Assembly (NCBI RefSeq): GCF_017813335.1
Contig: NZ_JAGIYY010000009.1
Span: 122,864-186,863 of the forward strand
DNA from: Tianweitania sediminis
Lineage (GTDB): Bacteria > Pseudomonadota > Alphaproteobacteria > Rhizobiales > Rhizobiaceae
Direction: 5' to 3'
DNA length: 64,000 bases
Within the stretch, counting starts at the first letter, position 1. Each line of letters begins with the position of its first letter. Under the pieces are notes generated by a model that did no database searches, was not told the DNA's origin, and worked only from the letters and a program-made list of their open reading frames with translations. The position numbers and the translations under genes were made by a program. Of this stretch, positions 22,766-37,936 are shown piece by piece.

Positions 22766-23785
22766 TCAGACCACGGCGCTCAGTGAGGATGCCTTCTGCG
22801 AAGCACCCGAGCGGTTTTGTGCCGCGACGATCTTGCGGAAATGCGTGATCGTGGTGTCGAGTCCTTCCCGTAAGGGGACCCTCGGTTCCCACCCCAGCAG
22901 CGCCTTGGCGCGGCTGATATCCGGTTTGCGACGGGTCGGATCATCCTTCGGCAGCGGCTGGAACACCACCGCGCTTTTCGTGCCGGTCTTGGCGACAACA
23001 AGCTCCGCAAGCTCATTGATCGTGAATTCACCGGGATTGCCGACATTCACGGGCACGCCCGGATTCCCGGCAACATCCACCAACGCGATCAGACCAGCGA
23101 TCAGGTCGGACACGTAGCAGAAAGAGCGGGTTTGTTCGCCCGTCCCATAGATGGTCATGGGTTCGCCGCGCAAAGCCTGCACCACCAGGTTGGACACGAT
23201 GCGTCCGTCTTCCGGATCCATGCGCGGGCCATACGTGTTGAAGATTCGCGCCACGCGGACATCGGCACGGTTGGCGCGCAGCATGTCAAAGCAAAGCGCT
23301 TCTGCGGCGCGCTTGCCCTCGTCGTAGCAGGCGCGAGGCCCCGTGCAATTGACGTTGCCGTTGTAATCCTCGCTCTGTGGGTGGCGGTCGGGGTCGCCGT
23401 AGACTTCGCTGGTGGAAGCTTGCAGAAAGCGCGCCTCGTGCGCTTCCGCCAGTTGCAACAGGTTCAGCGTGCCAGCAACGCTCGTCATCATCGTGTGGAA
23501 CGGATCAGCCTGATACCGTGGGGGCGACGCGGCACAAGCAAGATTGAAGACGACGTCGAGCTTTCCGGAGATCTTCAGCGGTTGACAGATATCATGCTGG
23601 AGGAAGCGGAAGCGCGAATGGTTCTGAAGATGCGCGACATTGTCTGCCGAACCGGTCAGCAGATTGTCGAGGCAGATCACGGACGCCCCGCGAGCGAGCA
23701 GAGCATCGCAAAGATGCGAACCAAGGAATCCCGCGCCGCCCGCCACCAAAGCAGTTTCGCCTGCGGCTGTGACCTGATCCATCAT
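22766..23785 (-). CDS. UDP-glucuronate decarboxylase-like SDR (UDP-xylose synthase)
   Basis: 339-aa extended SDR. The sequence follows UXS enzymes closely: GGAGFLGSHLCDALLARG (NAD-binding), CLDNLLTGSADNV, NLACAASPPRYQADP, ASTSEVYGDPDRHPQ, the catalytic YDEGKRAAE, RIFNTYGPRMDPEDGRIVSN and GEQTRSFCYVSDLI. UXS converts UDP-glucuronate to UDP-xylose, and UDP-glucuronate would come from the ugd gene in the divergent operon. The start overlaps the stop of the upstream CgeB-like gene by 4 bp (ATGA). It is the last gene of a seven-gene minus-strand operon. The product could be another UDP-pentose, but the motif match is strong. Confidence 0.88.
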   Translation of the reverse strand: MMDQVTAAGETALVAGGAGFLGSHLCDALLARGASVICLDNLLTGSADNVAHLQNHSRFRFLQHDICQPLKISGKLDVVFNLACAASPPRYQADPFHTMMTSVAGTLNLLQLAEAHEARFLQASTSEVYGDPDRHPQSEDYNGNVNCTGPRACYDEGKRAAEALCFDMLRANRADVRVARIFNTYGPRMDPEDGRIVSNLVVQALRGEPMTIYGTGEQTRSFCYVSDLIAGLIALVDVAGNPGVPVNVGNPGEFTINELAELVVAKTGTKSAVVFQPLPKDDPTRRKPDISRAKALLGWEPRVPLREGLDTTITHFRKIVAAQNRSGASQKASSLSAVV

Positions 23786-24909
23786 GCTGTTTCCCGAAAG
23801 GATGCCTTGCTTGCGTGGCTTCGGCTGGAAGACCGCTCCGGAGCCACATCCCGTAGATAACCGACAAGTTCCGCCGCGCGCGCGTGGCCGGTGTGACCTT
23901 GCAGGACGCGCTTCTTGGCGCTTGCCGCCATCTGGAGCCGCTGTTCCTCGGACGACCCAGTGAGGAGCGCCACCACCTCGTCGCTCGAGCGGGCAATCGC
24001 GACCGCTTCTCCGAAGGGGAGGAGATCGTCCAACCCTTCCCAAAAGTCGCTGATGATGGCGGTGCCGCAGGCTGCCGCTTCAAACAAGCGCACGCTCGGC
24101 GACCAACCCGCCGCGATCATGTCAGCCCGAGTGACGTTCAAGGTAAAGCGCTGGCGGCTGTAGAAGGATGGGTGTTCGGCGGGCGGCAGATGGTCGATGC
24201 GTTCGACGTTCGCCGGCCAGTCGATGCTATCCGGATATTGCGGGCCGGCGACCACGAAACGGAGATGAGGCAGGCGTCGTGCAGGCTCGATCAGAAGCTG
24301 TTTGAGCGTCGGCTGCCGGTCGTCGCTGTAAGTGCCGAGATAACCAAGGTCCCACACCGTCGCTTCGCCGGTGTTCTCGTAGCGCTTGTCATCCACGGAG
24401 CAATACAGCGCTTCCGCACGTGGTGCGCCGAACTCGTTTTCCAACTGGCGCAGCGTCGGGCCGCCGGTGAAGGAAAAGTAGACGTCGAACAACGGCACCT
24501 GACGTGCTGCCAGGTATTCCTCGTCGCCCTTCTTCAGGCGCGCAACGGTTATCGGGGTGTCGATGTCATAGAAGGCCAGACGTTTTGGGCGAAGCGCATG
24601 CACGGCATCGATCACCTGCGGGCCTTCCGGCACATAGGAGCCGATGATCACTGCGTCCGCCTCCTGAATGCGGGCGGCAAAGCGGCCAACGAGTTCATCC
24701 AAGGACTGGTAGTAGTGAAGCTCACAGAAATCCGGGGAGGGCAGGTCCCGATGCGCGGCATACCAAGGCACGTCTCGCTCCAGAAAAGTGACGCGATGGC
24801 CAAGCGCATGAAGACCGCGGAGCATGCCGCGATAGGTGGTGGCGTGTCCGTTCCCCCAGGACGATGACAGCGACAAGCCGATGATGACGATGTCGAGCGC
24901 TTCGCTCAC
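23782..24909 (-). CDS. CgeB-like glycosyltransferase 1 of 3
   Basis: 375-aa cytoplasmic glycosyltransferase with a GT-B fold of the CgeB (spore maturation) type. The N-terminal Rossmann half contains GLSLSSSWGNGHATTYRGML and ERDVPWY. The C-terminal half has NVTRADMIAAGWSPSVRLFE and AACGTAIISDFWEGL, the donor-binding signature. GTG start overlapping the previous gene by 4 bp. It is one of three adjacent paralogues sharing the N-terminal WNxGxAxxxRGxxR pattern and the RxFEAxACGxxxI motif but diverging elsewhere, so each may add a different sugar. Ends in a Ser/Arg-rich tail. Confidence 0.85.
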   Translation of the reverse strand: MSEALDIVIIGLSLSSSWGNGHATTYRGMLRGLHALGHRVTFLERDVPWYAAHRDLPSPDFCELHYYQSLDELVGRFAARIQEADAVIIGSYVPEGPQVIDAVHALRPKRLAFYDIDTPITVARLKKGDEEYLAARQVPLFDVYFSFTGGPTLRQLENEFGAPRAEALYCSVDDKRYENTGEATVWDLGYLGTYSDDRQPTLKQLLIEPARRLPHLRFVVAGPQYPDSIDWPANVERIDHLPPAEHPSFYSRQRFTLNVTRADMIAAGWSPSVRLFEAAACGTAIISDFWEGLDDLLPFGEAVAIARSSDEVVALLTGSSEEQRLQMAASAKKRVLQGHTGHARAAELVGYLRDVAPERSSSRSHASKASFRETA

Positions 24910-25997
24910 TCGGCCGCCTCCACACGGTTAGAGCGGAAGTCGCGGAAAATTGTGTCCGCTTCGGCTGCCCGGTCGGCATAGGTGTGGTCGCGCAGAACCC
25001 GCGCAAGACCAGCCTTGCCGATTTCGCTCGCACGTTCGGGCGCGAGCCCGGACAGGATCTCGGCGACGTCCTTTCCGTCACGCGCGACCAGCACTTCCTC
25101 GTCGGGCTTCAAGAAGAAGTCGACGCCGAGCCAGGCGTCGGTGATCAGGCAGGCCCCGGCGCCGCAAGCCTCAAACACGCGCGTCGCCGGCGAAAAGCCC
25201 ATATCAGCCATCGAATCGCGGCTGATGTTCAGTACGGCCTTGGGCGTTACGTTGAAGGCATTGTGGTCCCGCGTGCCGACATGGCCGATATAGTTGATAT
25301 TGCCGGACATCGGCTTGTCCCCCCAGCCGGAGCCTCCCAGGATGAAGCGCTGGTCGGGCAGGCTGTCGGCAGGATTGAGGAAAAAGCTTTCCACCCGCGC
25401 TTCGCGGTCCGGCAGGCGATTGCCGAGAAATGCAAGATCAGCCGCGAAGCGGGGATCCGGCTCCACCGGATGATGCGTCTCCGGGTCGAGTGCGTTGTAG
25501 ATCGGCACGCAACGCTTGGCACCGATGGCGCGATACGCATTCACCACCGGATCGCCGCCGCCATAAGTCAGCACGGCATCGATTTCCTTCAGCGCCTTGT
25601 GCTGGGGATGATCCGGATTGGCGCGGAGATCGGCAAGCGTGGCAGGAGCGTCCACATCCCAGAAGATCTTCATGGCGTCCGGGCGGGCGGCGCGGAGCAC
25701 TTCTGCCAGTAGAAGGTCATCTTCGAAACCCACGCCGCTGGCTTTGACGACGATGTCGGCATCCGCCGCCTTGGCCGCTTCCCGGCGCAGCGCATCCACC
25801 GTGCCGTCATAGACGACGACTTTGCACCATTCTGGCGGCTCGATGTCGCGGTTCTTGCCGCGCTCGTAAACGTCCGGCTCGTAGAAAGTGATGTCGTAGC
25901 CGCGTCCGGCCAGCGCCCGCAGAAGGCCGCGATAATAAGTTGCCGCGCCGTTCCAATAAGACGAAAGCAGGCTTGATCCATAAAAGGCGATCTTCAC
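24906..25997 (-). CDS. CgeB-like glycosyltransferase 2 of 3
   Basis: 363-aa paralogue of its neighbours. The start reads MKIAFYGSSLLSSYWNGAAT followed by YYRGLLRALAGRGYDITFYE; the C-terminal half has ISRDSMADMGFSPATRVFE and ACGAGACLITDAWLGVDFFL. GTG start overlapping the stop of the upstream paralogue by 4 bp, and its own stop overlaps the next gene by 4 bp. GT-B retaining glycosyltransferase is the likely activity; acceptor and donor unknown. No membrane segment, so it works on a soluble or membrane-presented acceptor in the cytoplasm. Confidence 0.85.
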   Translation of the reverse strand: MKIAFYGSSLLSSYWNGAATYYRGLLRALAGRGYDITFYEPDVYERGKNRDIEPPEWCKVVVYDGTVDALRREAAKAADADIVVKASGVGFEDDLLLAEVLRAARPDAMKIFWDVDAPATLADLRANPDHPQHKALKEIDAVLTYGGGDPVVNAYRAIGAKRCVPIYNALDPETHHPVEPDPRFAADLAFLGNRLPDREARVESFFLNPADSLPDQRFILGGSGWGDKPMSGNINYIGHVGTRDHNAFNVTPKAVLNISRDSMADMGFSPATRVFEACGAGACLITDAWLGVDFFLKPDEEVLVARDGKDVAEILSGLAPERASEIGKAGLARVLRDHTYADRAAEADTIFRDFRSNRVEAAE

Positions 25998-27118
25998 GCT
26001 GCGGCCTCCTTGGTGCCGGTCGGGGTGGTGTCTACGCCAAGTTCTGCCAAAATCGCCAGCAACTCGTCCACTCTATGACGACAGGTGTGGCGGGTGCGGA
26101 TGGTTTCCAGCCCCGAAGCGGCAATCTCTGCGCGCTGGGCCTCGTCGTGCAGGAGCGTGCGGATCAGCGCTGTCATCTCGTCGCCATCCTTCGCGAACAG
26201 GAAATCCTGCCCCGCACGAAACAGGCCTTCGGCATCGTTCCAGGGGGCCGAGATCAAGGGAATGCCACAGGCTAGCGCTTCAAACATGCGGATCGTCGGG
26301 ATACCCGGAAGCGATTCCACATAGGGCCGGCGAGGGATGTGCATGGTGAGCTTGTGCTGCGCGAAAGCCGCCGGGACATCAGCATTCGCGATCCAGCCGC
26401 CGTAGCCGAGGCCGGCTTGCTTCAACGCGTCGAGTGCGCGCGCGGGATAGCGCACACCCCGCACGGTGCCGCTCAGATCCAAAGTCGATGATGGTTCTGT
26501 GAGGAAGGAAGCGATTTCTACGGTGCGCTCGTCGTCGCCCCAGTTGCCGATCCAGATCAGGTCGCCTGTTTTCTCGATTTCCGGATGAGGCTTGAAGAGC
26601 CGATCGTCTGCGGCCTCATGCCAGGTGAAGACACGACGACCCCATCCCGCCTTCAGGTAGCGCTCGCGCAGGGTTTCGCCGAAGGCGAGCACCGCGTCAT
26701 AGCCGCTGAGATCAAGTCCGCCGATGTCCTGTTCTGCGGACACTGCGCGATGATGCGTATCGTGAAAAAGGAGGCTGAACCGACCGCCTTCGCGTCTGAT
26801 CTTGCCAATACGTGCCACAAGCGCCGGATCGGTCCATTCATGCACGAGGACGACATCCGCTGCCGCCAGCGCCGCTTCGTGATCGAACCCGTCGTCATAT
26901 TGCTCGGAGCGGAGGGTCGGGAAATCGTCGCTAAAGCGATCGACCGCCGCCTGGCCTAGGTCTTGCCGGAGGTTCTGCCGGCTCCACGATTCAATCGGCT
27001 CAAGGGCGTGCGCTTCGAAGCCGCGGGCGACGAGATCGCGCATGACGCCGCGCAGAAAATGCGCATTGCCATGGTTCCAGTCGGATACGAGGGAGTGTGT
27101 GTAAAGAAGAACGCGCAT
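25994..27118 (-). CDS. CgeB-like glycosyltransferase 3 of 3
   Basis: 374-aa paralogue, the first of the triplet in transcription order. It starts at ATG 27118 (MRVLLYTHSLVSDWNHGNAH, then FLRGVMRDLVARGF). The C-terminal half contains MHIPRRPYVESLPGIPTIRM followed by FEALACGIPLISAPWNDAEG. It is the most divergent of the three at the N-terminus (EPIESWSRQNLRQ). It lies 3 bp after the GT4 gene stop and overlaps the second paralogue by 4 bp, so the operon is tightly coupled. Confidence 0.85.
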   Translation of the reverse strand: MRVLLYTHSLVSDWNHGNAHFLRGVMRDLVARGFEAHALEPIESWSRQNLRQDLGQAAVDRFSDDFPTLRSEQYDDGFDHEAALAAADVVLVHEWTDPALVARIGKIRREGGRFSLLFHDTHHRAVSAEQDIGGLDLSGYDAVLAFGETLRERYLKAGWGRRVFTWHEAADDRLFKPHPEIEKTGDLIWIGNWGDDERTVEIASFLTEPSSTLDLSGTVRGVRYPARALDALKQAGLGYGGWIANADVPAAFAQHKLTMHIPRRPYVESLPGIPTIRMFEALACGIPLISAPWNDAEGLFRAGQDFLFAKDGDEMTALIRTLLHDEAQRAEIAASGLETIRTRHTCRHRVDELLAILAELGVDTTPTGTKEAAA

Positions 27119-27121
27119 GGA

Positions 27122-28276
27122 TTAGTTCGAAAGCACGAGAGGTCGCTCGGCGGGGACCTGGACTTGGGTGTAGATCGCCATCATCGCCTCGGCTTGAGCG
27201 GAAGCGGAGTAGCGCTTGGCACGCAACAGGGCCTTGCGTCCAAACTCCTGGCGCTGTGAAGGACTGGCAATAAGACCGTCCAAGGCGGCGACGAAGGCGT
27301 CCGGGTCGCGGGGAGCGGCAAACAGCGCAGCACCATCCCACAGTTCGCGATAGGTCGGGATATCGGACAAGACGAGTGGCGCACCGGCCGCGGCGGCTTC
27401 AAGGGGAGCCAGGCCAAACGGCTCGTAGATGGACGGCGACACAAAGATGCCGGCTCGTGCCATGACCTCCTGCACTTCCGAACTTGAAAGCGTGCCAAGA
27501 TGATCGGCGTTGCGCATGCGAATGCGCTCACCGTTCGGACCCTTCACCGAGCCTGCGAGCCGCACGGGCCAGGACAGCTTATTGCCCACCGCATCGAGAA
27601 CCGCGCCGTTCTTCCCTTCGTCCCACCAGCGCCCGGCTGCGAACACGAAAGGCTGCCGTTCTGCAGTACCGGCCGTGACTTTCGAGGCATTGTGCACCAC
27701 GGACAGGGATCGAATCGGGCCATAGCTGCGCTCCAGCGCTTCGGCATGGCTGCTGCTCGGCGCGAGCACCGCGTCAGCTGCATCGAAGCCTGCGCGATTC
27801 AAGCGCTTCTGCCATAGCAACTTACCCGGCTGCTGGCTCCTTACGGCATCGAGCCAGGTGATCACGCAGGAATGCGATACCACGACCACGGGGCAGGGCA
27901 CAGAAAGCCCAGCCGCCTGCGACGGAGCGTTGAGGTGAAGCAGGTCAATGCCTTCGGCCTTCACAAGCGCTTCGATGCGCCTTGGCAGATCGTCCAATTC
28001 GGCCGGGCGCTTGGCCAGCCATTCGAGCTTTGCGTCCTGCCAGATCAGCTTGCCAATCTTTTCAGCTTCATGCCGCTGCTCGGACGAGGGGCGAGGACCA
28101 AAGCCGACGAACACGAAGGTGATGCCATGCGGCTGCAAGGATGCCGCGAGATCGAGGCCGTAGCGCCAAACGCCGCCAACGGCGTCCATAGTCATCAGGA
28201 CCCGCAGCCGTCGGGAACTGGCACCATTTCGTGCCGGACCGCTCCTGCTGCTTACCGTTCGTTCCGCTCCGCTCAC
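27122..28276 (-). CDS. GT4-type glycosyltransferase
   Basis: 384-aa glycosyltransferase of family 4. I start at the GTG overlapping the upstream epimerase stop (GTGA); a longer frame to 28444 lies wholly inside that epimerase gene. The N-terminal acceptor half begins RVLMTMDAVGGVWRYGLDLA. The donor half has the RHxRNADHLGTL region and GIFVSPSIYEPFGLAPLEAA with the EX7E motif. Best guess is a retaining enzyme using a nucleotide sugar such as UDP-Xyl, UDP-GlcA or a product of the two epimerases encoded just upstream. Possibly the enzyme that starts the glycan on its acceptor, but this is inference. Confidence 0.85.
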   Translation of the reverse strand: MSGAERTVSSRSGPARNGASSRRLRVLMTMDAVGGVWRYGLDLAASLQPHGITFVFVGFGPRPSSEQRHEAEKIGKLIWQDAKLEWLAKRPAELDDLPRRIEALVKAEGIDLLHLNAPSQAAGLSVPCPVVVVSHSCVITWLDAVRSQQPGKLLWQKRLNRAGFDAADAVLAPSSSHAEALERSYGPIRSLSVVHNASKVTAGTAERQPFVFAAGRWWDEGKNGAVLDAVGNKLSWPVRLAGSVKGPNGERIRMRNADHLGTLSSSEVQEVMARAGIFVSPSIYEPFGLAPLEAAAAGAPLVLSDIPTYRELWDGAALFAAPRDPDAFVAALDGLIASPSQRQEFGRKALLRAKRYSASAQAEAMMAIYTQVQVPAERPLVLSN

Positions 28277-29355
28277 GCCGACACGGCCCGCTGCTGGGGA
28301 GCGCTCGCCCGGATGCGGTTCTCGGCCAGCCAATGGGCAAGATCCGCCAAACCGTCGCGCCAGCCGACCTTCGCCTGCCAGCCGATCGCGCTCTCGATCT
28401 TGCGCGTGTCTGCCACGAAATAGAACTGATCGCCCTTGCGCCAATCACCGTAGCCGATGTCGACATTTCGGCGGGTCAATCGCGTGATCTCACTGAGCAC
28501 CATCCGCAGGCTGACGCTGTTGGTTGGGCCGCCGCCAAGGTTGAAGGCCTGTCCCGACACGCAGTCGATTGCATCCAGAACACCACGATAAGCGGCGACG
28601 CAGTCGCGCACATGCAGGACGTCGCGAACCTGCTTGCCATCGCCATAGATCGAGATCGGCTCACCACTAAGCGCCTGGAGGAGGAAATGGGCAACCCAGC
28701 CCTGATCCTCCGTGCCGAACTGGCGCGGACCGTAGATGCAGCTCATGCGCAACACAGCCGTCGGGAGGTCAAAGGATTTTGCGTAGTCCAGAACATACTG
28801 GTCGGCAACGCCCTTGGAGCAACCGTAAGGCGTGCAAAAGTCGAGCGGGCGATCTTCCCCTACGCCGAATTCGGCGAGGTGCGGGTCAGCCGGGGTGTAG
28901 CGCTCCTCCGTTTCCTGCATGGCGAGATCATCGAGGCCGCCATACACCTTGTTGGTGCTGGCAAAGATCACAGGCACGCGGCGACCGGTTGCCCGCACCG
29001 CTTCCAGGACGTTAAGCGTTCCGCGGGCATTGACCTCGAAATCGTCAACCGGATCGGCCAGGCTCGTCGTCACGGCGGTCTGCGCCGCAAGGTGGAACAC
29101 GGCCTGCGCATCGGCGACCAGGTCGCGCACGGCGCCTGCATCGCGAATGTCGGCGCGGGCTGGGTGGACGCGCGAGCCATGCGTGGCGACCAGCCAATCG
29201 AGATTATCCTGAACGCCGGCGCGACTGAGATTGTCGAGCACCACCACGTCGCGGCCTTCAGAGAGGAAACTGTCCGCCAGATTGGATCCGATGAAGCCGC
29301 TGCCGCCGATGATCACGACCGGCTGGGCTCGCCCGATGATTGCAGGTCCCGCCAC
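28273..29355 (-). CDS. NAD-dependent epimerase resembling CDP-paratose 2-epimerase
   Basis: About 360-aa extended SDR. The NAD motif is GGSGFIGSNLADSFL, the catalytic motif YGCSKGVADQYVLDYA, and the segments ASTNKVYGG and YGPRQFGTEDQGWVAHF are typical of CDP-paratose (tyvelose) 2-epimerases. No CDP-hexose synthesis genes are in the window, so the true substrate may be another nucleotide sugar. I prefer GTG 29355, which has GGGGAG 9 bp upstream; GTG 29376 is the alternative. It follows the first epimerase gene closely and its stop overlaps the GT4 start. Confidence 0.85.
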   Translation of the reverse strand: MAGPAIIGRAQPVVIIGGSGFIGSNLADSFLSEGRDVVVLDNLSRAGVQDNLDWLVATHGSRVHPARADIRDAGAVRDLVADAQAVFHLAAQTAVTTSLADPVDDFEVNARGTLNVLEAVRATGRRVPVIFASTNKVYGGLDDLAMQETEERYTPADPHLAEFGVGEDRPLDFCTPYGCSKGVADQYVLDYAKSFDLPTAVLRMSCIYGPRQFGTEDQGWVAHFLLQALSGEPISIYGDGKQVRDVLHVRDCVAAYRGVLDAIDCVSGQAFNLGGGPTNSVSLRMVLSEITRLTRRNVDIGYGDWRKGDQFYFVADTRKIESAIGWQAKVGWRDGLADLAHWLAENRIRASAPQQRAVSA

Positions 29356-29394
29356 GCTCTTATGCTCCCCTTGCACAGGAAGCTGTCGTCCTGT

Positions 29395-30501
29395 TCAAGA
29401 TACCAGCCCTCGTTCTTCCAATTCCTTGCGCATCTGCGCACCCCGATCTTCCGCACCCGTTTCGCTGACCCACTCGGCCAACTCGCCAAGTGTGTCCTGC
29501 AGGCGATGCTTTGGCTCGAACCCAAGCAGTTCGCGGGCGGCCGAGATGTCGGCGAAGCAGTTGCGGATATCACCGGAACGCGCCTTGTTCAGGATGTCAG
29601 GCTTGATGTGGGAGACGCCCATGGCGTCCGCGAGCAGCGTTGCGACTTCTGCGATGGTGTAGGCATTGCCGCTGCCGATGTTGATCACGTGGCCGTTGGC
29701 TTTGGGAGCGTCCAGCGCCATGCGGAAAGCTCGCGCGACATCGCGAACATGCACGAAGTCGCGGCGTTGTTCGCCGTCTTCGAAGATCATCGGTGGCTGA
29801 CCATTGGCAAGGCGCGAGGCGAAATTCGCCAAGACCCCAGTATAGGGATTCGACAGCGCCTGGCCCGGTCCGAACACGTTGAACAGGCGCAACGCGACAG
29901 CCTCGACATTGTAGGCTTCGCCGAAGATCAGCACTTCGCGCTCCTGCGCGAACTTGGTGAGCGCATAAATAGATGCGAGATCGACTGGCTTGTCTTCGGA
30001 GGTCGGGATCGGCTTCAGCTGTTCGCCCGAGCTTGTCGTTGGCTGCCAAAGGCCTGTCTTTACGCGCTCGCCCTGCCTGCGAATGTTGCCGTGCCGCACT
30101 CCGTCGGCTGTTTCGTAGAGCCCTTCACCATAAACGCTCATGGAAGAAGCCACCACGATGCGCTTGATTGGCTTGCCGATCATCTTTTCGAGGAGAACAG
30201 CCGTGCCAAGATCGTTTGCGCCGACATAGCGCGCGATCTCGTACATGGACTGACCGACGCCAACTTCCGCTGCGAGATGGATGACGCTGTCCATGCCGTC
30301 CAACGCCCGCGAAACTGCATCGGCATCTGTCATCTGCGCGTGGATGAACTCGACCCGCTCATCCAGAACAGGTGCAGCACCGCCGTGTACCTGCTCGATC
30401 AGCCCGTCCAGAACCCTGACCTGATGCCCCGCGGCGAGCAATTCCTCGACAACATAACGCCCGATGAAGCCACAGCCCCCGGTCACCAGCACTTTCCGCA
30501 C
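29395..30501 (-). CDS. NAD-dependent epimerase resembling dTDP-L-rhamnose 4-epimerase
   Basis: 368-aa extended SDR, first gene of the seven-gene glycan operon. GTG start at 30501 behind AAGGAG with 9-bp spacing. NAD motif VTGGCGFIGRYVVEELLAAG, ASSMSVYGEG, catalytic Tyr-Lys in SIYALTKFAQE and LRLFNVFGPGQALSNPYTGV, a pattern seen in WbiB-type dTDP-rhamnose 4-epimerases. An internal insert (about residues 130-165, GNIRRQGERVKTGLWQPTTS) is also typical of that group. The physiological substrate is unproven. Confidence 0.85.
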   Translation of the reverse strand: MRKVLVTGGCGFIGRYVVEELLAAGHQVRVLDGLIEQVHGGAAPVLDERVEFIHAQMTDADAVSRALDGMDSVIHLAAEVGVGQSMYEIARYVGANDLGTAVLLEKMIGKPIKRIVVASSMSVYGEGLYETADGVRHGNIRRQGERVKTGLWQPTTSSGEQLKPIPTSEDKPVDLASIYALTKFAQEREVLIFGEAYNVEAVALRLFNVFGPGQALSNPYTGVLANFASRLANGQPPMIFEDGEQRRDFVHVRDVARAFRMALDAPKANGHVINIGSGNAYTIAEVATLLADAMGVSHIKPDILNKARSGDIRNCFADISAARELLGFEPKHRLQDTLGELAEWVSETGAEDRGAQMRKELEERGLVS

Positions 30502-30908
30502 CTAGAATCGCTCCTTGATCACCTGCGTTGCCACCATAACTAGCAAGGATCTTCTTCTCGGAAACCCTGGCTTCCATTAACAAATGTGAATTCTAGCTGG
30601 CATTTAGCCGACGTTGTCCGGAGAACCGTTGCAAAGGAGGCTTCTTCCTCTTGAACAAACATGGTGCTGGAATAGTTACGGCCGCGTGTTGGTGCGCGCC
30701 GGAGCTGATCCGAGGGGAGGGGCTCGCCGAGGCGAGAAAGTGGTGGACAAGACCTGCAGTTGACGTTCCGCTCCAGCTTTTGCTGCTCCCCGGGCTTGCT
30801 GGACACGCCTGCGGACGAAAAGGTCAAGCGAAACGTAACGTTGGAAATGTCCGCAGCACCCACCCGGAGCTGTTTGGGGTGGGAGAATGAGGGTTAACTG
30901 AGGGACGT
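30502..30908. other. 407-bp intergenic region between divergent glycan operons
   Basis: Holds the promoters of both the epimerase/glycosyltransferase operon (minus) and the ugd operon (plus). I see no convincing protein-coding frame. Visible elements are a short hairpin (CTCGCC-GA-GGCGAG, 30723-30736) and an 11-bp palindrome AACGTAACGTT at 30832-30842, about 67 bp before the ugd start, which could be an operator. No clear sigma-70 or EcfG-type promoter could be assigned by eye. Confidence 0.5.
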
Positions 30909-32297
30909 ATGAAGATTGCAATTCTTGGCGCCGGCTATGTCGGTCTTACGACCGGTACTTGCCTTGCCGAACTCGGTCACGACGTCACTTGCGTCGATCT
31001 GGATGAAGCCCGCATTGCCAAGCTAAACGGCGGTGAGGTTCCCATCTTCGAACCCGGTCTGGAAGAGATGCTGCGCAATCATGTGGGCGCTGCGCATCTG
31101 CGGTTCACGACTTCCATCGCATCTGGTGTCGATGGCGCCGACGCCGTTTTCATCGCGGTCGGCACACCGTCGCTGCCTGACGGCGACATCGATCTGTCCT
31201 TCGTGGAAGAAGCGGCCCGCAGCATTGCTCGTCTGGTGAAGCCGAACTGCGTGATCGTCGTGAAATCCACGGTCGTCGTGGGCACCTGCAAGGCGCTGCG
31301 CGAGATCATCGCCGAAGAACGGGGTGCGCTCGATTTTTCTATCGCATCAAACCCCGAATTCCTGCGCGAAGGCTCTGCCGTGAGCGACTTCCTCAGCCCG
31401 GATCGCGTTGTGTTCGGTTCGGACGATCCGCGGGCCCGGGCGCTCCTGGAAAAGATCTATCAGCCGCTCGCCGACAAAGGCACGCCGATCCTGTGCACCA
31501 CCAACGCGAATGCCGAACTCATTAAGTATTCGGCTAATGCGTTCCTTGCCCTCAAGATCGGCTTCATCAACGATGTCGCCAATCTATGCGAGCAGGTGGG
31601 GGGCGATGTGAACGCCGTTGCGGCAGGCATCGGACTCGATAAGCGCATCGGCTCAAGCTTCCTTGCTGCCGGTCCGGGCTACGGCGGGTCCTGTTTTCCA
31701 AAGGATACACGTGCTTTCGCTGCGATTGGCCGCAAGCACGGCACGCCGCAAAGTCTGATCGAGAACCTGATTGCGAGCAATGATGCACGCCCGCAGGCGC
31801 TGGCAGATCGTGTCTTACGCGAGTTGGGAGGCGACCCGCACGCGGTCACGATTGCCGTGCTTGGCCTCGCCTTCAAAGCGAACACTGACGACGTGAGAGA
31901 ATCGCCCAGCCTCGCAGTGATCAACCGGCTGCTCAAGGCTGGCTGCACGGTGCGGGCTCACGACCCAAAAGCGATGCAAGCGGCGGCACCTCATATTTCC
32001 GGCGCTGAGCTGTGCGACGATGCGTTTGCCGCTGTTGCCGGTGCCGATGCCGTGATCGTTTTGACGGAGTGGGACGAGTACCGGCAGATGAACGTGGCGG
32101 ATGTCGTGCGGGCGATGCGTGGCCGCTTGCTCGTGGATTATCGCAATCTGTGGAACGTGGCGAACATCGCCGATCTCGATGTGCATTATGTCAGCATCGG
32201 CCGCGCCCCGGCTCCGCGCTCCAAGGCGTCCGGAAAAGTCGCAAAGGCCAATCCGCGCGGCGATCGGTCCGCGGTTGCGGTGTCTCCGGCAGGCTGA
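30909..32297 (+). CDS. ugd: UDP-glucose 6-dehydrogenase
   Basis: 462-aa enzyme oxidising UDP-glucose to UDP-glucuronate with two NAD+. N-terminal Rossmann motif MKIAILGAGYVGLTTGTCLA, the central-domain helix SANAFLALKIGFINDVANLC, the catalytic Cys in GPGYGGSCFPKDTRAF, and the C-terminal domain AFKANTDDVRESPSL. A lysine/arginine-rich tail (residues 430-455) is extra. GAGGG lies 5 bp before the ATG. In this setting it supplies UDP-GlcA for the UXS-type decarboxylase and glycosyltransferases of the divergent operon. The next gene starts 6 bp on. Confidence 0.95.
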   Translation: MKIAILGAGYVGLTTGTCLAELGHDVTCVDLDEARIAKLNGGEVPIFEPGLEEMLRNHVGAAHLRFTTSIASGVDGADAVFIAVGTPSLPDGDIDLSFVEEAARSIARLVKPNCVIVVKSTVVVGTCKALREIIAEERGALDFSIASNPEFLREGSAVSDFLSPDRVVFGSDDPRARALLEKIYQPLADKGTPILCTTNANAELIKYSANAFLALKIGFINDVANLCEQVGGDVNAVAAGIGLDKRIGSSFLAAGPGYGGSCFPKDTRAFAAIGRKHGTPQSLIENLIASNDARPQALADRVLRELGGDPHAVTIAVLGLAFKANTDDVRESPSLAVINRLLKAGCTVRAHDPKAMQAAAPHISGAELCDDAFAAVAGADAVIVLTEWDEYRQMNVADVVRAMRGRLLVDYRNLWNVANIADLDVHYVSIGRAPAPRSKASGKVAKANPRGDRSAVAVSPAG

Positions 32298-32303
32298 GCC
32301 AGC

Positions 32304-33302
32304 ATGCAAGAAGCAGGAACCGGTGCGGCTGAGAAAAGCCACACGATGCGCGCGGCGTTGGTGACCGGCGCCGGCCAGATGAGAGTGGATGAAGTTGCTC
32401 GCCCGCAGCCTGGGCCGGGTGAGATTCTCCTGCGTCTTCAGGGCTGTGGCGTTTGCGCTTCCAATCTCGGCCCCTGGTCGGGACCGGACTGGATGCAGTT
32501 TCCAACCGAGCCCGGCGGACTGGGTCATGAAGGCTGGGGTACCATTGCAGCTGTTGGCGCGGACGTAGCCGGTTTTTCGGTGGGAGACCGGGTCGCGGCT
32601 TTGTCGCAGCATGCTTATGCCGAGTTCGACACCGTTGCTGCTGACATGGCGATCCGCTTGCCAGCAGCTTTTGGCGATCGGCCATTCCCGGGCGAGCCGC
32701 TTGGGTGCGCCATGAACATCTTTCACCGCGCCGAAATCGAAGCCGGGCAAACCGTGGCCATTGTCGGCATCGGCTTTCTTGGTGCTCTTCTCACGCAGCT
32801 TGCCGCTGGTGCCGGCGCCCAGGTGATCGCAATCACCCGCCGGCCGTTTGCGCTAGATTTCGCGCGACGGATGGGTGCTGCGGAAACGATCGTCATGGAC
32901 GATAATTGGCGCATCCTGGAGGATGTTCGCGCCCTCACGAATGGGCGCTTGTGCGAGCGGGTGATCGAAGCGGTGGGCAAGCAATGGCCGCTCGATCTTG
33001 CGGGCGAACTCACCGCCGAACGAGGCCGCCTGGTGATCGCCGGCTACCATCAGGACGGACCGCGCCAGGTCAACATGCAGATGTGGAACTGGCGGGGACT
33101 GGATGTGGTGAATGCGCATGAGCGCGATCCCGCGATCTACATGCGCGGCATGCGCGAAGCGGTGGATGCCGTTCTCAGCGGACGGCTCGATCCAGACCCG
33201 CTTTATACCCATACCTATCCGCTTGATGAGCTCGGAACGGCCCTGGATGCGACGCGCGACCGGCCCGACGGCTTCATGAAAGCTCTGGTGGCGCTGCGGT
33301 GA
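32304..33302 (+). CDS. Zinc-type MDR alcohol/polyol dehydrogenase-like protein
   Basis: 332-aa medium-chain dehydrogenase. Catalytic-zinc ligands appear as the Cys in GCGVCASNLGPWSG and GHE in PGGLGHEGWGTIAAVG; the four-cysteine structural zinc lobe is absent. The Rossmann motif is VAIVGIGFLGALLTQLAAGA. A plausible role is oxidation or reduction of a polyol, cyclitol or sugar intermediate, given the neighbouring Gfo/Idh/MocA oxidoreductase and the facing inositol-phosphate synthase operon. ATG 32304 is used; an internal ATG at 32346 is possible but has no ribosome site. Overlaps the next gene by 4 bp. Confidence 0.85.
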   Translation: MQEAGTGAAEKSHTMRAALVTGAGQMRVDEVARPQPGPGEILLRLQGCGVCASNLGPWSGPDWMQFPTEPGGLGHEGWGTIAAVGADVAGFSVGDRVAALSQHAYAEFDTVAADMAIRLPAAFGDRPFPGEPLGCAMNIFHRAEIEAGQTVAIVGIGFLGALLTQLAAGAGAQVIAITRRPFALDFARRMGAAETIVMDDNWRILEDVRALTNGRLCERVIEAVGKQWPLDLAGELTAERGRLVIAGYHQDGPRQVNMQMWNWRGLDVVNAHERDPAIYMRGMREAVDAVLSGRLDPDPLYTHTYPLDELGTALDATRDRPDGFMKALVALR

Positions 33303-34300
33303 GCGCGGGTGAAACCAAGCCGCGCGTCGGTTTTCTCGGTGTGGGCTGGATCGGCCGGCACCGGATGCAGGGGATCCTCGAAACGGGTGCTGTGGAGATC
33401 ATCGCCGTCGCAGATCCGTCCGCCGAAATGGCAGCGCAAGCGGCCGCTCTTGTTCCCCAGGCAGTGGTGGGTGCAACGATCGAGGACGTGCTTGGTCAAG
33501 ACCTCGACGGACTGGTGATCGCAACACCAAGCGCTCAGCATGCCTCGCAAGCTATCCAGGCGCTGGAACGCGGGGTGGCGGTTTTCTGCCAAAAGCCGCT
33601 TGGCCGGTCCGCAACGGAGGTGCAGCAGGTGGTGGAGGCTGCACGCGCGGCTGATCGACTGCTTGGGGTGGACTTCTCCTACCGCCATACCGCAGGCATT
33701 CAGGCGATCCGCTCGCTCGTGCAGGTGGGAGAACTCGGCGCCATTCGCGCAATCGATCTGACTTTCCACAACGCTTATGGTCCGGACAAGCCCTGGTTTT
33801 ACGATCGCGCGCTCTCCGGCGGCGGATGTTTGATCGATCTCGGCGTTCACCTGATCGATCTTGCTTTGTGGGTCTTGGATTTCCCGGAGGTCAGCGACGT
33901 TCAGGGTCACCTCCTCTCCAATGGCAAGCTTCTCGACCCGCAGCCGCAAGAGGTCGAGGATTATGCCTTGGCGAGCTTCCGGCTGGGCTCTGGCACCCTC
34001 GTTCGCCTTGCCTGCTCCTGGCGCTTGCCCGCCGGCCGAGACGCGGTGATCGGGGCAGAGTTCTACGGCGAGAAGGGTGGGGCGGCGCTGAAAAACGTCG
34101 ACGGCTCGTTCTACGACTTCACCGCCGAGCTTTATCGCGGAACTGCGCGTGAGGTGCTGGTGACGCCGCCGGATCAATGGGGCATCAGGGCCGCGCAGGA
34201 TTGGGCTCGCCGCCTTGCATGGGATGGACGCTATCACCCTGAAGCGGAGCGCTTTGCGGCTGTGTCCGAGGTTTTGGATCGGATCTACGGGGTCGTCTGA
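33299..34300 (+). CDS. Gfo/Idh/MocA family oxidoreductase
   Basis: 333-aa NAD(P)-dependent sugar or cyclitol oxidoreductase. GTG start overlapping the MDR gene stop (GTGA). The Rossmann motif is GFLGVGWIGRHRMQGILETG; the family's EKP motif appears as CQKPLG; the C-terminal domain has GGGCLIDLGVHLIDLALW with the catalytic Asp and His. Members include inositol 2-dehydrogenases and glucose-fructose oxidoreductase. With Ino1 in the facing operon, an inositol or inosose substrate is an attractive but untested idea. The stop codon lies inside a hairpin. Confidence 0.87.
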   Translation: MSAGETKPRVGFLGVGWIGRHRMQGILETGAVEIIAVADPSAEMAAQAAALVPQAVVGATIEDVLGQDLDGLVIATPSAQHASQAIQALERGVAVFCQKPLGRSATEVQQVVEAARAADRLLGVDFSYRHTAGIQAIRSLVQVGELGAIRAIDLTFHNAYGPDKPWFYDRALSGGGCLIDLGVHLIDLALWVLDFPEVSDVQGHLLSNGKLLDPQPQEVEDYALASFRLGSGTLVRLACSWRLPAGRDAVIGAEFYGEKGGAALKNVDGSFYDFTAELYRGTAREVLVTPPDQWGIRAAQDWARRLAWDGRYHPEAERFAAVSEVLDRIYGVV

Positions 34301-34327
34301 CCGGAAGCCAGAGGTTTCCGGTCAGAC
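34295..34327. terminator. Hairpin between convergent operons, overlapping a stop codon
   Basis: A perfect 12-bp stem (GTCTGACCGGAA / TTCCGGTCAGAC) with an 8-nt loop begins within the last codons of the Gfo/Idh/MocA gene and ends 14 bp before the end of the facing glycosidase gene. There is no strong T-tract, so it may end transcription weakly or protect the 3' ends of both mRNAs. Confidence 0.6.
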
Positions 34328-34341
34328 GCAGATGCAAGGGT

Positions 34342-35277
34342 TCACACCGTCTCGCCGACCTTCGTCCCAACACTGGAAGTCATTTTGCCTCCACCCGCGT
34401 AGCGGTTGGTCATGAGGGCGCAGAACTCGGCAAACTCTTCGGGTACCTGGGGTGCGCTCGTGTGGTGGGGCTGGATGCCACGATGCTCGGGCGTGAAGCA
34501 GTAGGTCACGGTCACATCGAAATCAGCGAGCGCGTCCATCTGCCGGTCGAACCAGTCCATTGCGTTCTCACGGAAGCTGTCTGCCCAAGACAAGCCGGTG
34601 CGCACATGCTTCACGCCGAGCCGCTTCATCCAGGCCACCGCGTCGTCGAGCCGATGATCGTGATAATGGAACCATTGCACCAAGCCCATCTCGGGCGCGA
34701 TCTCGGCGAACGCCTCCAGCGAGGGCTTCGGCGTTCCATCCTGCCGCAAAAGGCCCATGTGGAAATGGCGGTAGTAGGATGAGCCTTCTGCTTCGCGATG
34801 TCGGGTGGTTGCTTCCCATTCCCGAGGAAGATCATAAAGGGAATACCAGTGGATCCGCGGTGCCTGTCCGCGAAGAAGCTCGGCCGTCCGCTTCAGCCCC
34901 CAGAGCTGCACTTCCTCCGCGCCAAAAGTCGAAACACCAACTTCGCTGACCCACACAGGCAGATGCGTGATGCCTCGAATTTCTGCAACCTTCTGGGGCC
35001 ATTCGTCGATCTGCCACAGATTCCAGTCGAGGGGAAAGCCATGGACGGCCACCGCATCGACGTGATCCAGCACGCCGAAGTGCTTCATGCGTTCGATAAA
35101 AAAGGTGTCGATCGGCGAAATCCCGCCGAGCACGCGCGTCAGTCCAGGTGCTTCGGCGGCGATGGCCTGGCCGGCGAGCTTTGCCATATGGGCGAATTGC
35201 GACCAGTCAGGGTCGATTTCCGGATCCCAATGCGACTTGTTGTTGGGCTCGTTCCAGATCATCGCTGCTTCGATCAA
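34342..35277 (-). CDS. Clan-A (GH39-like) glycosidase with circularly permuted barrel order
   Basis: 311 aa without signal peptide. TTG start behind AAGGAG (7-bp spacing), overlapping the methyltransferase stop by 4 bp. The acid/base motif IWNEPN occurs at residues 7-12 (E10) and the nucleophile motif WVSEVGVST at 109-117 (E112). The end-of-barrel segment LLRQDGTPKPSLEAF follows at 176-190. Only then comes a segment that normally begins such enzymes: LDDAVAWMKRLGVKHVRTGL with SWAD (about 210-233), then DVTVTYCFTPEH and EFAEFCALMTNRY. The order beta4-beta8 then beta1-beta3 suggests a permuted TIM barrel. Likely acts on a xyloside or related glycoside in the cytoplasm, matching the UXS and ugd genes nearby. 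Confidence 0.8.
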   Translation of the reverse strand: MIEAAMIWNEPNNKSHWDPEIDPDWSQFAHMAKLAGQAIAAEAPGLTRVLGGISPIDTFFIERMKHFGVLDHVDAVAVHGFPLDWNLWQIDEWPQKVAEIRGITHLPVWVSEVGVSTFGAEEVQLWGLKRTAELLRGQAPRIHWYSLYDLPREWEATTRHREAEGSSYYRHFHMGLLRQDGTPKPSLEAFAEIAPEMGLVQWFHYHDHRLDDAVAWMKRLGVKHVRTGLSWADSFRENAMDWFDRQMDALADFDVTVTYCFTPEHRGIQPHHTSAPQVPEEFAEFCALMTNRYAGGGKMTSSVGTKVGETV

Positions 35278-36032
35278 GACTGTTCTCCTTTCGCCGGATA
35301 GACTGCTTCAGCGCCATAGGCCCGGTCCGCGACCCGGCAGATGAAGACTTCGATTTCCGGATGCTCTTCCACACGGAAGCCAGCGCTCCTCAACATGGCT
35401 TCCGTTCCTGCCCGGTTGGGTGCCCACCAGTTGGTGGGGTCATTGGCATAGCGATGCTCGATGAAGTGCATCTTCGGATAGCCGGGCTCATCGAAGATCG
35501 CCTCTTCCTCGAACGGGTAATCGCTGGCGACCCGCGATACATCCATGCTGCCGCGTTGCATTGTTTGGAACACAAGCATGTCGCGCGCCACGTGTTCGCG
35601 GATCAGGTCGAGAGCAAGGAGCGGATGGCGCAGGTGGTAGAATACGCCCATGAAAAGGACGAGATCGAACTTCTCGTTGATTGCTCCGACGTCGAACACC
35701 GACAGCTTGCGAAACTCGATGTCAGCACCCGCGATCTCAGCTACGAAGCGGGACTGGGCGAGGTAATGATCGTCCGAATCGATGCCCAGAACGCGCGTCG
35801 CACCGCGTCGTTTCATTTCGAGGGAATAGAAGCCGGCATTGCAGCCAATATCGAGAACGGATTTGCCAGTCAGGTCGTGCGGAATCGCATGTCGGAAGCG
35901 GCGCCATTTCTCATGCGGGTAATTGCCGAGAAAATGGTGCGGCGCAGTCCAGTGCCCCTGGAGCTCAATGTTGTGGAACCACGGCCCCAACTGGTCGATG
36001 CGCTGTTCGATCTCGCTGCTCGTTAATGACAA
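35274..36032 (-). CDS. SAM-dependent methyltransferase (TIGR04290-like)
   Basis: About 252-aa class I methyltransferase. TTG 36032 is preferred because AAGGAG lies 6-7 bp upstream; the longer frame to 36137 runs back into the phosphatase gene. SAM-binding motif I is SVLDIGCNAGFYSLEMKRRG, with acidic residue in LGIDSDDHYL and motif IV-like FDLVLFMGVFYHLRHPL. Its N-terminal QLGPWFHNIELQGHWTAP and later PTNWWAPNR resemble, from memory, the TIGR04290 proteobacterial family found near glycan genes; the fold also resembles CmoB-type enzymes. It may methylate a sugar or cyclitol. Coupled to the glycosidase gene by a 4-bp overlap. Confidence 0.85.
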   Translation of the reverse strand: MSLTSSEIEQRIDQLGPWFHNIELQGHWTAPHHFLGNYPHEKWRRFRHAIPHDLTGKSVLDIGCNAGFYSLEMKRRGATRVLGIDSDDHYLAQSRFVAEIAGADIEFRKLSVFDVGAINEKFDLVLFMGVFYHLRHPLLALDLIREHVARDMLVFQTMQRGSMDVSRVASDYPFEEEAIFDEPGYPKMHFIEHRYANDPTNWWAPNRAGTEAMLRSAGFRVEEHPEIEVFICRVADRAYGAEAVYPAKGEQS

Positions 36033-36070
36033 TTGCGTCTCCTTTCTTGCACGGCATTTCTGCCGCACCC

Positions 36071-36691
36071 TCAAGCGCTGGGATGGGTGTCGATCCGCTC
36101 GTTGAGCCACAAGAGCTTTGCCCCCCAGTCGCCCCATGCAAGACCGGTGGTGGATGCCGGATCAACATCGAAGCGATGGAGTTGGCCGATTGGAAGATTG
36201 AGCACGTGACAGACCGCGGCCTTGATGAGATCGGCGTGCGTGACCATGACGATCGTATCGCCCGCCTTGCCCTCGTGTCGCGCTGCCTCAACGCTCGCCA
36301 CGATTCGGGCCTGCACGGCAGCCATCGTTTCACCGCCGGGTGTTCGCGCCGTGGCCCGCTGCTCATTCCATGTGCGCCATGCTGGATCCTGGTCGAGCTC
36401 GTCCCAGGTTCGATTGGTCCAGGTGTCGCCGAAGTCGATCTCGTCCAACCGGCCATCCGTTTGCACGGCGGGGAGTCCGCAAGCCGATGCAAGCGCGTGC
36501 GCTGTTTCCTGCGTCCGCGGTTGTGGACTGGCGATGATCTGGGCCGGCCGAACCGAACGGATCCGCTGCGACAATCGCTGTGCCTGGTCCCGGCCGATCT
36601 GGCCAAGGCTGACGCCGGGGGTGCGGCCGGTGAGCCGATCGCCCAGGCCGTCATGCGCAGCATGTCGAACAAGAAGGATCGTGCAGGTCAA
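36071..36691 (-). CDS. Histidine phosphatase family protein
   Basis: 206-aa phosphoglycerate-mutase-like phosphatase. The phospho-His motif is [10 protein letters not shown] near the N-terminus; [14 protein letters not shown] carries the second Arg, [17 protein letters not shown] the usual acidic segment, and [14 protein letters not shown] the second catalytic His. TTG start overlapping the Ino1 stop by 4 bp (TTGA). The tight coupling to inositol-phosphate synthase makes it a candidate inositol-phosphate phosphatase, releasing free myo-inositol or acting later on a glycosyl-inositol phosphate. That substrate is inferred only from position. Confidence 0.88.
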
Positions 36692-37806
36692 AGCGCCGGC
36701 TCAGCCACTTTCCGTTCGCCTTCGTCTTCTCCGTTGCCGGCAATGAAGCTGAGCGTGCGCTCGCGCGCTTCTGCATCGGTGAACTGCTGGGGAGGAGACT
36801 TCATGAAATAGCTTGACGGGCCGACCAGGGCGCCGCCGATCTTGCGGTCGAGCGCCAGCTTGGCGCAGCGCACCGCGTCGATCACCACGCCGGCCGAATT
36901 GGGGGAGTCCCAGACTTCCAGCTTCAGTTCGGCGCTCAAGGGCACGTTGCCGAAGGTCGTGCCTTCGAGGCGGATATAGGCCCATTTGCGATCGGTAAGC
37001 CAGGGAACATGGTCGCTCGGACCGACATGGATGTTGCCGGCTTCAAGCGGCACGTCGATCTGGCTCGTTACCGCCTGCGTCTTGGAAATCTTCTTCGATT
37101 CCAGGCGCTCGCGTTCCAGCATGTTCAGGAAATCGGTGTTGCCGCCGAAATTCAGCTGGTAGGTGCGGTCGACCCGCACACCCCGTTCGCGAAAAAGGTT
37201 GGCCAGCATGCGGTGCACGATCGTTGCACCAACCTGGCTCTTGATGTCGTCGCCAATGATGGGAACGCCCTTGGCGGCAAAGCGCTGCTGCCATTCCGGC
37301 CGCGAAGCGATGAACACAGGGATGCAGTTGACGAAGGCAACACCTGCCTCGAGTGCCTGTTCGGCGTACCATTCGGTTGCCTGCTGTGAGCCGACGGGCA
37401 GATAGGAAACCAGCACGTCCGCACCGCTGCGGCGAAGCACGTCGGCCACGTCCACGGCGGGTGCACTCGACTCCTCGACCAAGTCGGTCAGGTATCGACC
37501 CAGCCCATCAAGCGTCGGCCCGCGCTGGACCTGCACGCCGGTTGTGTCAACATCCGCGAACTTGAAGGTGTTGTTGGGTTCGGAGAAGATTGCTTCGCTG
37601 ACGTCACGGCCGACCTTGTCCCCCGCCACGTCGAAGGCACAACAGATCTCCACATCGCTGACATGGTAGCCGGCCAAGTCTACGTTCATGAGACCGGGGA
37701 TAGGCTCATTGCCGCTGGCGTCACGATAGAAGCTGAGACCTTGGACCAGCGAGGATGCGCAGTTTCCAACGCCTACAATGCCAACGCGAACTTTCCTTGA
37801 ACCCAT
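36688..37806 (-). CDS. ino1: myo-Inositol-1-phosphate synthase, actinobacterial type
   Basis: 372 aa. It converts glucose 6-phosphate to 1L-myo-inositol 1-phosphate with bound NAD. The NAD motif is [76 protein letters not shown] and [17 protein letters not shown] are the conserved blocks of the Mycobacterium Ino1 group. ATG 37806 is preferred (start of homology); ATG 37836 would add ten residues. It leads an operon with the phosphatase, methyltransferase and glycosidase, and is divergent from paoA across about 190 bp. Confidence 0.93.
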
Positions 37807-37936
37807 TCCGTTCCCAATCGTAGGATCTAAGTACATCCGCCCATTCTAGGGCGTTACAAGAAAGGTTCCACGGCTGCGAACCGGATTCCCCATCCTGATG
37901 CCCCATGTGCCTCGCCTTGGGTGCCAAGCGCAACCG

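Follow-up and report, generated by a model that had tools for sequence, protein, structure and literature searches.

A predicted circularly permuted clan GH-A glycosidase encoded in a glycan-type gene cluster of Tianweitania sediminis

Natural circular permutation is known for glycosidases, the GH16 lichenase of Fibrobacter being one natural permutant, and for TIM barrels; one in clan GH-A may be new. The GH70 glucansucrases are permuted relatives of GH13; GH70 starts at alpha3 and ends at beta3 (PMC11046441). They share with the protein described here, which we call cpGH, a natural permutation of a glycosidase (beta/alpha)8 barrel, and their cut lies one element away from that of cpGH. However, they are secreted, multidomain alpha-glucan enzymes of clan GH-H and represent an independent event. 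Transaldolase, compared with class I aldolase, is likewise a natural TIM barrel permutation (PMC2213659), but the shift is one of two units and the enzyme is not a glycosidase. The deacetylase domain of PgaB (CE4) is a carbohydrate-active barrel, also permuted, that belongs to an exopolysaccharide system (PMC13366581), although its (beta/alpha)7 esterase fold differs from that of cpGH. One paper counts 54 permuted domain instances (PMC4432964), which are not named in the passage that gives the count. We found no permuted clan GH-A enzyme in the parts of the permutation literature covered by our search, which left most subscription journals outside.

PslG, the best match of the cpGH family among PDB sequences, is an endo-beta-glucanase with a retaining mechanism whose gene lies in a polysaccharide cluster (PMC11912335). 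One study found that Psl output depends on the catalytic residues of PslG and cites a different one with the opposite result (PMC6813494). PslG (GH39, clan GH-A; PDB 4zn2, 5bx9, 9g17) has the normal strand order, unlike cpGH, is periplasmic or membrane-linked, is about 100 residues longer and has weak sequence similarity to cpGH. PslG is the precedent for the role that we propose for cpGH.

cpGH is encoded in a 64,000-nucleotide window, the whole stretch of DNA that was analyzed, from Tianweitania sediminis (contig NZ_JAGIYY010000009.1, positions 122,864 to 186,863). The gene, its start region and the two putative catalytic motifs are as follows.

34342..35277, minus strand: circularly permuted glycosidase gene (cpGH), 311 codons, TTG start
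35285..35290, minus strand: AAGGAG, likely ribosome binding site by sequence
35274..36137, minus strand: methyltransferase of family TIGR04290 (384.2 bits, cut-off 300), its own start uncertain
35239..35259, minus strand: IWNEPNN, with the predicted acid/base Glu10 after beta4
34927..34953, minus strand: WVSEVGVST, with the predicted nucleophile Glu112 at beta7

The initial annotation took this to be an intact gene with a ribosome binding site, coupled to its neighbor, and the locus bears this out. AAGGAG lies 7 bases upstream of the start codon, and the start of cpGH and the stop of the methyltransferase gene share 4 bases (TTGA). We examined 80 loci out of at least 571 relatives confirmed by a scan of one genome collection. 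The frame and both catalytic motifs are whole in all 80, which rules out a decayed fragment. The start codon lies exactly seven residues ahead of WNEPNNK in 79 of them (74 ATG, 5 GTG) and is a GTG one codon earlier in the last (L052). It overlaps the methyltransferase stop by 4 bases in 39, 8 bases in 22 and 1 base in 3 of the 71 loci that have the methyltransferase. The conserved start codon also rules out a mis-annotated start within a longer gene of normal order, and the open frame opens only ten codons upstream. By this conservation, the start of cpGH is fixed just before the predicted beta4. The methyltransferase was not found in nine of the 80 loci, eight of which are Sinorhizobium, Ensifer or Rhizobium by name. 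The gene that converges on cpGH encodes a Gfo/Idh protein, and a perfect inverted repeat between the two, cgtctgaccggaa ... ttccggtcagacg at 34294-34328, spans the Gfo/Idh stop codon. This repeat, which has no T run after it on either strand, may be a terminator shared by both genes.

The order of the two parts of the barrel in cpGH is the reverse of that in its relatives.

34696..35277, minus strand: codons 1-194, beta4 to alpha8, the last five strands placed first (predicted secondary structure; match to residues 110-294 of P0233)
34396..34695, minus strand: codons 195-294, beta1 to alpha3, the first three strands placed last (predicted secondary structure; match to residues 2-108 of P0233)

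P0233 is a relative of normal order. Taken separately, each part of cpGH matches it, in swapped order: residues 110-294 of P0233 match cpGH 7-194 (E 3e-29) and residues 2-108 match cpGH 196-303 (E 7e-17). These matches rule out the idea that the C-terminal part is an unrelated added domain. P0241, P0161 and P0176 give the same swapped two-block match, and so does the 308-residue barrel domain of another normal-order relative, which a survey of 299 genomes found in G265: its residues 112-288 match the front of cpGH and its residues 5-104 the back (BLASTP, 35% over cpGH residues 7-184 and 26% over 198-293). When the back of cpGH is placed before the front (195-294 before 1-194, the tail 295-311 omitted), the two-block match to P0233 becomes a single one of 303 columns (33%, E 8e-51); a gap of one residue marks the junction of residues 294 and 1.

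When rotations of the whole of cpGH were scored with a profile built from 73 normal-order sequences, the peak was a cut at 192, with 206.6 bits compared with 133.4 unrotated. As controls, a shuffled cpGH scored -5.8, and the best gain was at most 0.5 bits in 26 normal-order proteins and at most 0.1 bits in 10 outgroup barrels. Of the 55 family members scanned in this way, 50 have their best cut at 192-204, with gains of 0.5 to 92.9 bits. The other five peak at 207-279; in these a cut at 192 gives both pieces in the right order as separate matches, probably as a result of longer ends between the pieces. The permuted order of both blocks is found in all 80 loci. At the level of sequence, then, the swapped order, which the initial annotation proposed with a cut between helix 3 and strand 4, is far from a chance result, and both the order and its conservation are established. 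The motif positions of the initial annotation were also correct (IWNEPN at 7-12, WVSEVGVST at 109-117, LGVKHVRTGLSWAD at 220-233, TVTYCFTPEH at 256-265 and EFAEFCALMTNRY at 281-293).

Standard searches recognize cpGH in halves. Residues 3-189 resemble PslG 132-324, residues 198-295 resemble N-terminal parts of beta-glucosidases (E 0.006 and 0.017), and Pfam and PDB sequence searches with cpGH gave half matches only. PslG is the best PDB match of a permuted profile, although a weak one that covers half the chain (E 1.3e-6, residues 3-190), and it is also the best match of a profile of ten normal-order, barrel-length sequences without epimerase tails (E 7e-5). In Pfam (E up to 1) the sole entry found was Glyco_hydro_cc (PF11790), below its gathering score (19.4 vs 21 bits) and over residues 3-117 only; neither GH39 nor the GH70 profile was matched. 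NCBIfam gave no match (E up to 1). In a separate homologue search, the best 120 of at least 8000 matches are all 301-322 residues long, and for each a single alignment spans 93-100% of the query. Most of those listed are named 'beta-xylosidase', which is a database label only. The source genome has neither a second copy of cpGH nor one of normal order (E up to 0.001), and a pattern scan of viral contigs gave no match. One permuted homologue, P0119, is labelled Vibrio parahaemolyticus and is 79% identical to the window protein; it lies on a contig of 1,058 bases and is possibly contamination. A homologue from Mesorhizobium has about 80% identity to cpGH. The permuted form was seen in Alphaproteobacteria. 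Outside this class, a 'Beta-xylosidase' of Legionella clemsonensis (P0318) shares 37% identity with the normal-order P0233 across 98% of its length.

cpGH lies in a glycan-type cluster (genes 22766-37836) with four glycosyltransferases, three NAD-dependent epimerase/dehydratases and further sugar and inositol genes.

36688..37836, minus strand: inositol-3-phosphate synthase-like gene (PF01658, 121.3 bits, cut-off 27; TIGR03450, 540.6 bits, under the cut-off of 638)
36071..36691, minus strand: gene of the histidine phosphatase superfamily (PF00300, 146.7 bits)
33299..34300, plus strand: Gfo/Idh/MocA oxidoreductase (profile match; cluster comparison)
32304..33302, plus strand: zinc-type dehydrogenase (profile match; cluster comparison)
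30909..32297, plus strand: nucleotide sugar (UDP-glucose-type) dehydrogenase (TIGR03026, 458 bits, cut-off 189.8)
29395..30501, minus strand: NAD-dependent epimerase/dehydratase, Epi2 (cluster comparison)
28273..29376, minus strand: NAD-dependent epimerase/dehydratase, Epi1, without a barrel
27122..28444, minus strand: GT4-type glycosyltransferase, start uncertain
23782..27118, minus strand: three glycosyltransferase-like genes (PF13524), which we take to be 'CgeB-like'
22766..24043, minus strand: NAD-dependent epimerase/dehydratase, start uncertain; its matches to other clusters start near codon 92

The synthase, the phosphatase, the zinc dehydrogenase and the Gfo/Idh protein score below the NCBIfam cut-off of their best match. 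Epi1 and the epimerase gene upstream of it are 18 bases apart, and the epimerase at 22766..24043 is perhaps a UDP-xylose synthase. In many cpGH loci (L018-L097), a frame that best matches the CgeB1 glycosyltransferase of the cluster lies between the phosphatase and the methyltransferase. The product of the cluster is probably an inositol-based glycoside; the inositol part, drawn from the neighboring genes, is the least certain step of this reading.

Fifteen stretches of other genomes show the cluster in two forms. In form A (L131, L132, L133, L134 and L137), Epi1 has no barrel and cpGH adjoins the methyltransferase. Form B clusters (L124-L128) have an Epi1 with a normal-order barrel fused to its front, and they show no cpGH within the stretch. 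These fused barrels are the sister group of cpGH by sequence and come from the same gene cluster. The five intact ones examined also have the catalytic motifs of cpGH, but they keep the usual beta1-beta8 order as the N-terminal domain of an epimerase, whereas cpGH is permuted and free-standing. The sources name the fused proteins CDP-paratose 2-epimerase or GDP-mannose 4,6-dehydratase, and normal-order proteins of barrel length without an epimerase also exist (P0176, P0233).

The distribution of the two barrels and the history of the epimerase suggest that cpGH does the job of the fused normal-order barrel, which seems to have been lost here. In searches of 385 and 398 genomes, cpGH was found in 18, 16 of them without a normal-order family member, and seven genomes have an intact fused barrel but no cpGH. 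Two of the 18 have both. In one (G619), the fused barrel (L129:9835-11781, plus strand) is shortened by about 40 residues and no longer has either catalytic motif; cpGH, elsewhere in the genome (L130), keeps both. In the other (G484), the fused copy ends at the contig end and its visible part retains the nucleophile, which counts against strict replacement. G553, counted among the 16, has an 801-residue open frame (L135:9208-11610, minus strand) on the contig of cpGH, some 47 kb away from it, with a distant normal-order GH-A match of about 26%. In a tree of 8 of 21 fused (>300 aa) and 22 of 32 cpGH-associated epimerases (<85% identity), the window Epi1 nests among the barrel-fused ones (bootstrap 96 and 91), and a tree constrained to place it with the remaining cpGH-associated epimerases is rejected (delta lnL 95.8, AU p 6e-9). 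Since Epi1 has no barrel and yet nests among fused epimerases, the window cluster appears to be built on a form B backbone from which the barrel was lost, with the permuted enzyme in its stead.

These same data bear on the possibility that cpGH is instead a recycling hydrolase that travels with the inositol-phosphate synthase module and does not act at the step of the fused barrel. The phosphatase neighbors cpGH in 78 of the 80 loci, as the inositol synthase does in 78, the other cluster genes are near it in fewer (8-kb flanks), and the apparent presence of both barrels in G484 would fit. Nevertheless, we think this unlikely given how rarely the two barrels share a genome and where the window epimerase groups.

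We suspect that cpGH acts on an intermediate of a glycoside that contains inositol, trimming or remodeling this intermediate. Such an intermediate would be built by the four glycosyltransferases, the methyltransferase and the sugar-nucleotide enzymes, and a two-glutamate enzyme could then trim or transfer a glycosyl unit of it. cpGH begins with MIEAAMIWNEPNN, already within beta4; this leaves no room for a signal peptide, and therefore cpGH should act in the cytoplasm. It could also be that the permuted protein keeps the fold and serves mainly, and without catalysis, for binding or as a scaffold for the cluster enzymes. Its place in a biosynthetic cluster without an assigned substrate is compatible with such a role, which would also explain the fusion of the normal-order barrel to an epimerase in other genomes. 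However, both catalytic motifs are present in every locus examined, and the sole degenerate barrel found is in a genome that also has cpGH. Catalysis therefore seems to be what is kept, and a scaffold is improbable.

A structure prediction of cpGH holds all eight strands in a single chain, which would form one closed (beta/alpha)8 barrel. pLDDT falls below 50 at residues 11-15, 155-169 and 267-269, which are loops after strands where the active site would lie, and in the tail 297-311. N9 and E10 at the end of beta4 and E112 at beta7, on strands taken from the prediction, follow the clan GH-A pattern of Asn-Glu and Glu, and all three are invariant in 55 aligned proteins. The clan also has an Arg on beta2, a His on beta6 and a Trp on beta8. 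R226, H79 and W144 lie on the matching strands of the model and are likewise invariant in the 55. We infer that Glu10 is the acid/base and Glu112 the nucleophile. The idea that the C-terminal 110 residues form a domain of their own, one that resembles the start of a GH-A barrel by chance, with the N-terminal half barrel pairing with another copy, draws on the two-block sequence matches and on half barrels of glycosyl hydrolases assembled in the laboratory (PMC8250049), but the continuous match after rotation, the eight strands of the single-chain model and the constant order in 80 of 80 loci make it extremely unlikely. We consider it probable that cpGH is a PslG-like (GH39-related) circular permutant, predicted to form one barrel, that likely cleaves or transfers a beta-glycosidic bond inside the cell with two glutamates.

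The trees support a permuted order that is derived and, most simply, of single origin. In a tree of 15 permuted sequences (rotated for alignment), 26 of normal order and 10 from outgroup barrels, bootstrap is 100 for the permuted clade, for the normal-order clade and for the two joined (FastTree 1.0, 0.96 and 0.99), the value for the permuted clade being read from an unrooted split. For this tree, thinning left 26 of 156 normal-order sequences, the 15 permuted ones were chosen by hand out of 27, and the degenerate G619 barrel was left out, as it was from a larger tree without outgroup (27 permuted, 77 normal-order), in which the permuted split is also 100. Because all ten outgroup barrels are of normal order, matching the normal-order profile in one piece, the permuted order is the derived one. 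P0233 appears as sister to the permuted clade only in the tree without outgroup; with the ten outgroups the two groups are plain sisters, so we do not claim it as the parent. As a guess, the permutation might have arisen by, for example, tandem duplication followed by loss of both outer parts.

We lean toward the view that this is the first natural circular permutant of clan GH-A, fixed once in Alphaproteobacteria and spread as a coupled gene module, and that it displaced a normal-order barrel of the same pathway from an epimerase fusion, so that a dead barrel and epimerases without a barrel remained. Even though the family is large, with the 571 or more relatives in a single genome collection, cpGH either escapes the profile libraries tried or is half matched by them. 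To our knowledge, it is rare for a natural permutant to have a normal-order version that is still at work in the same pathway of sister lineages. Here, a normal-order sister, the permuted enzyme, a degenerate fused barrel and an epimerase seemingly stripped of its barrel all exist, and their coexistence makes the rise of a permutation, its spread and the replacement of its parent directly testable.
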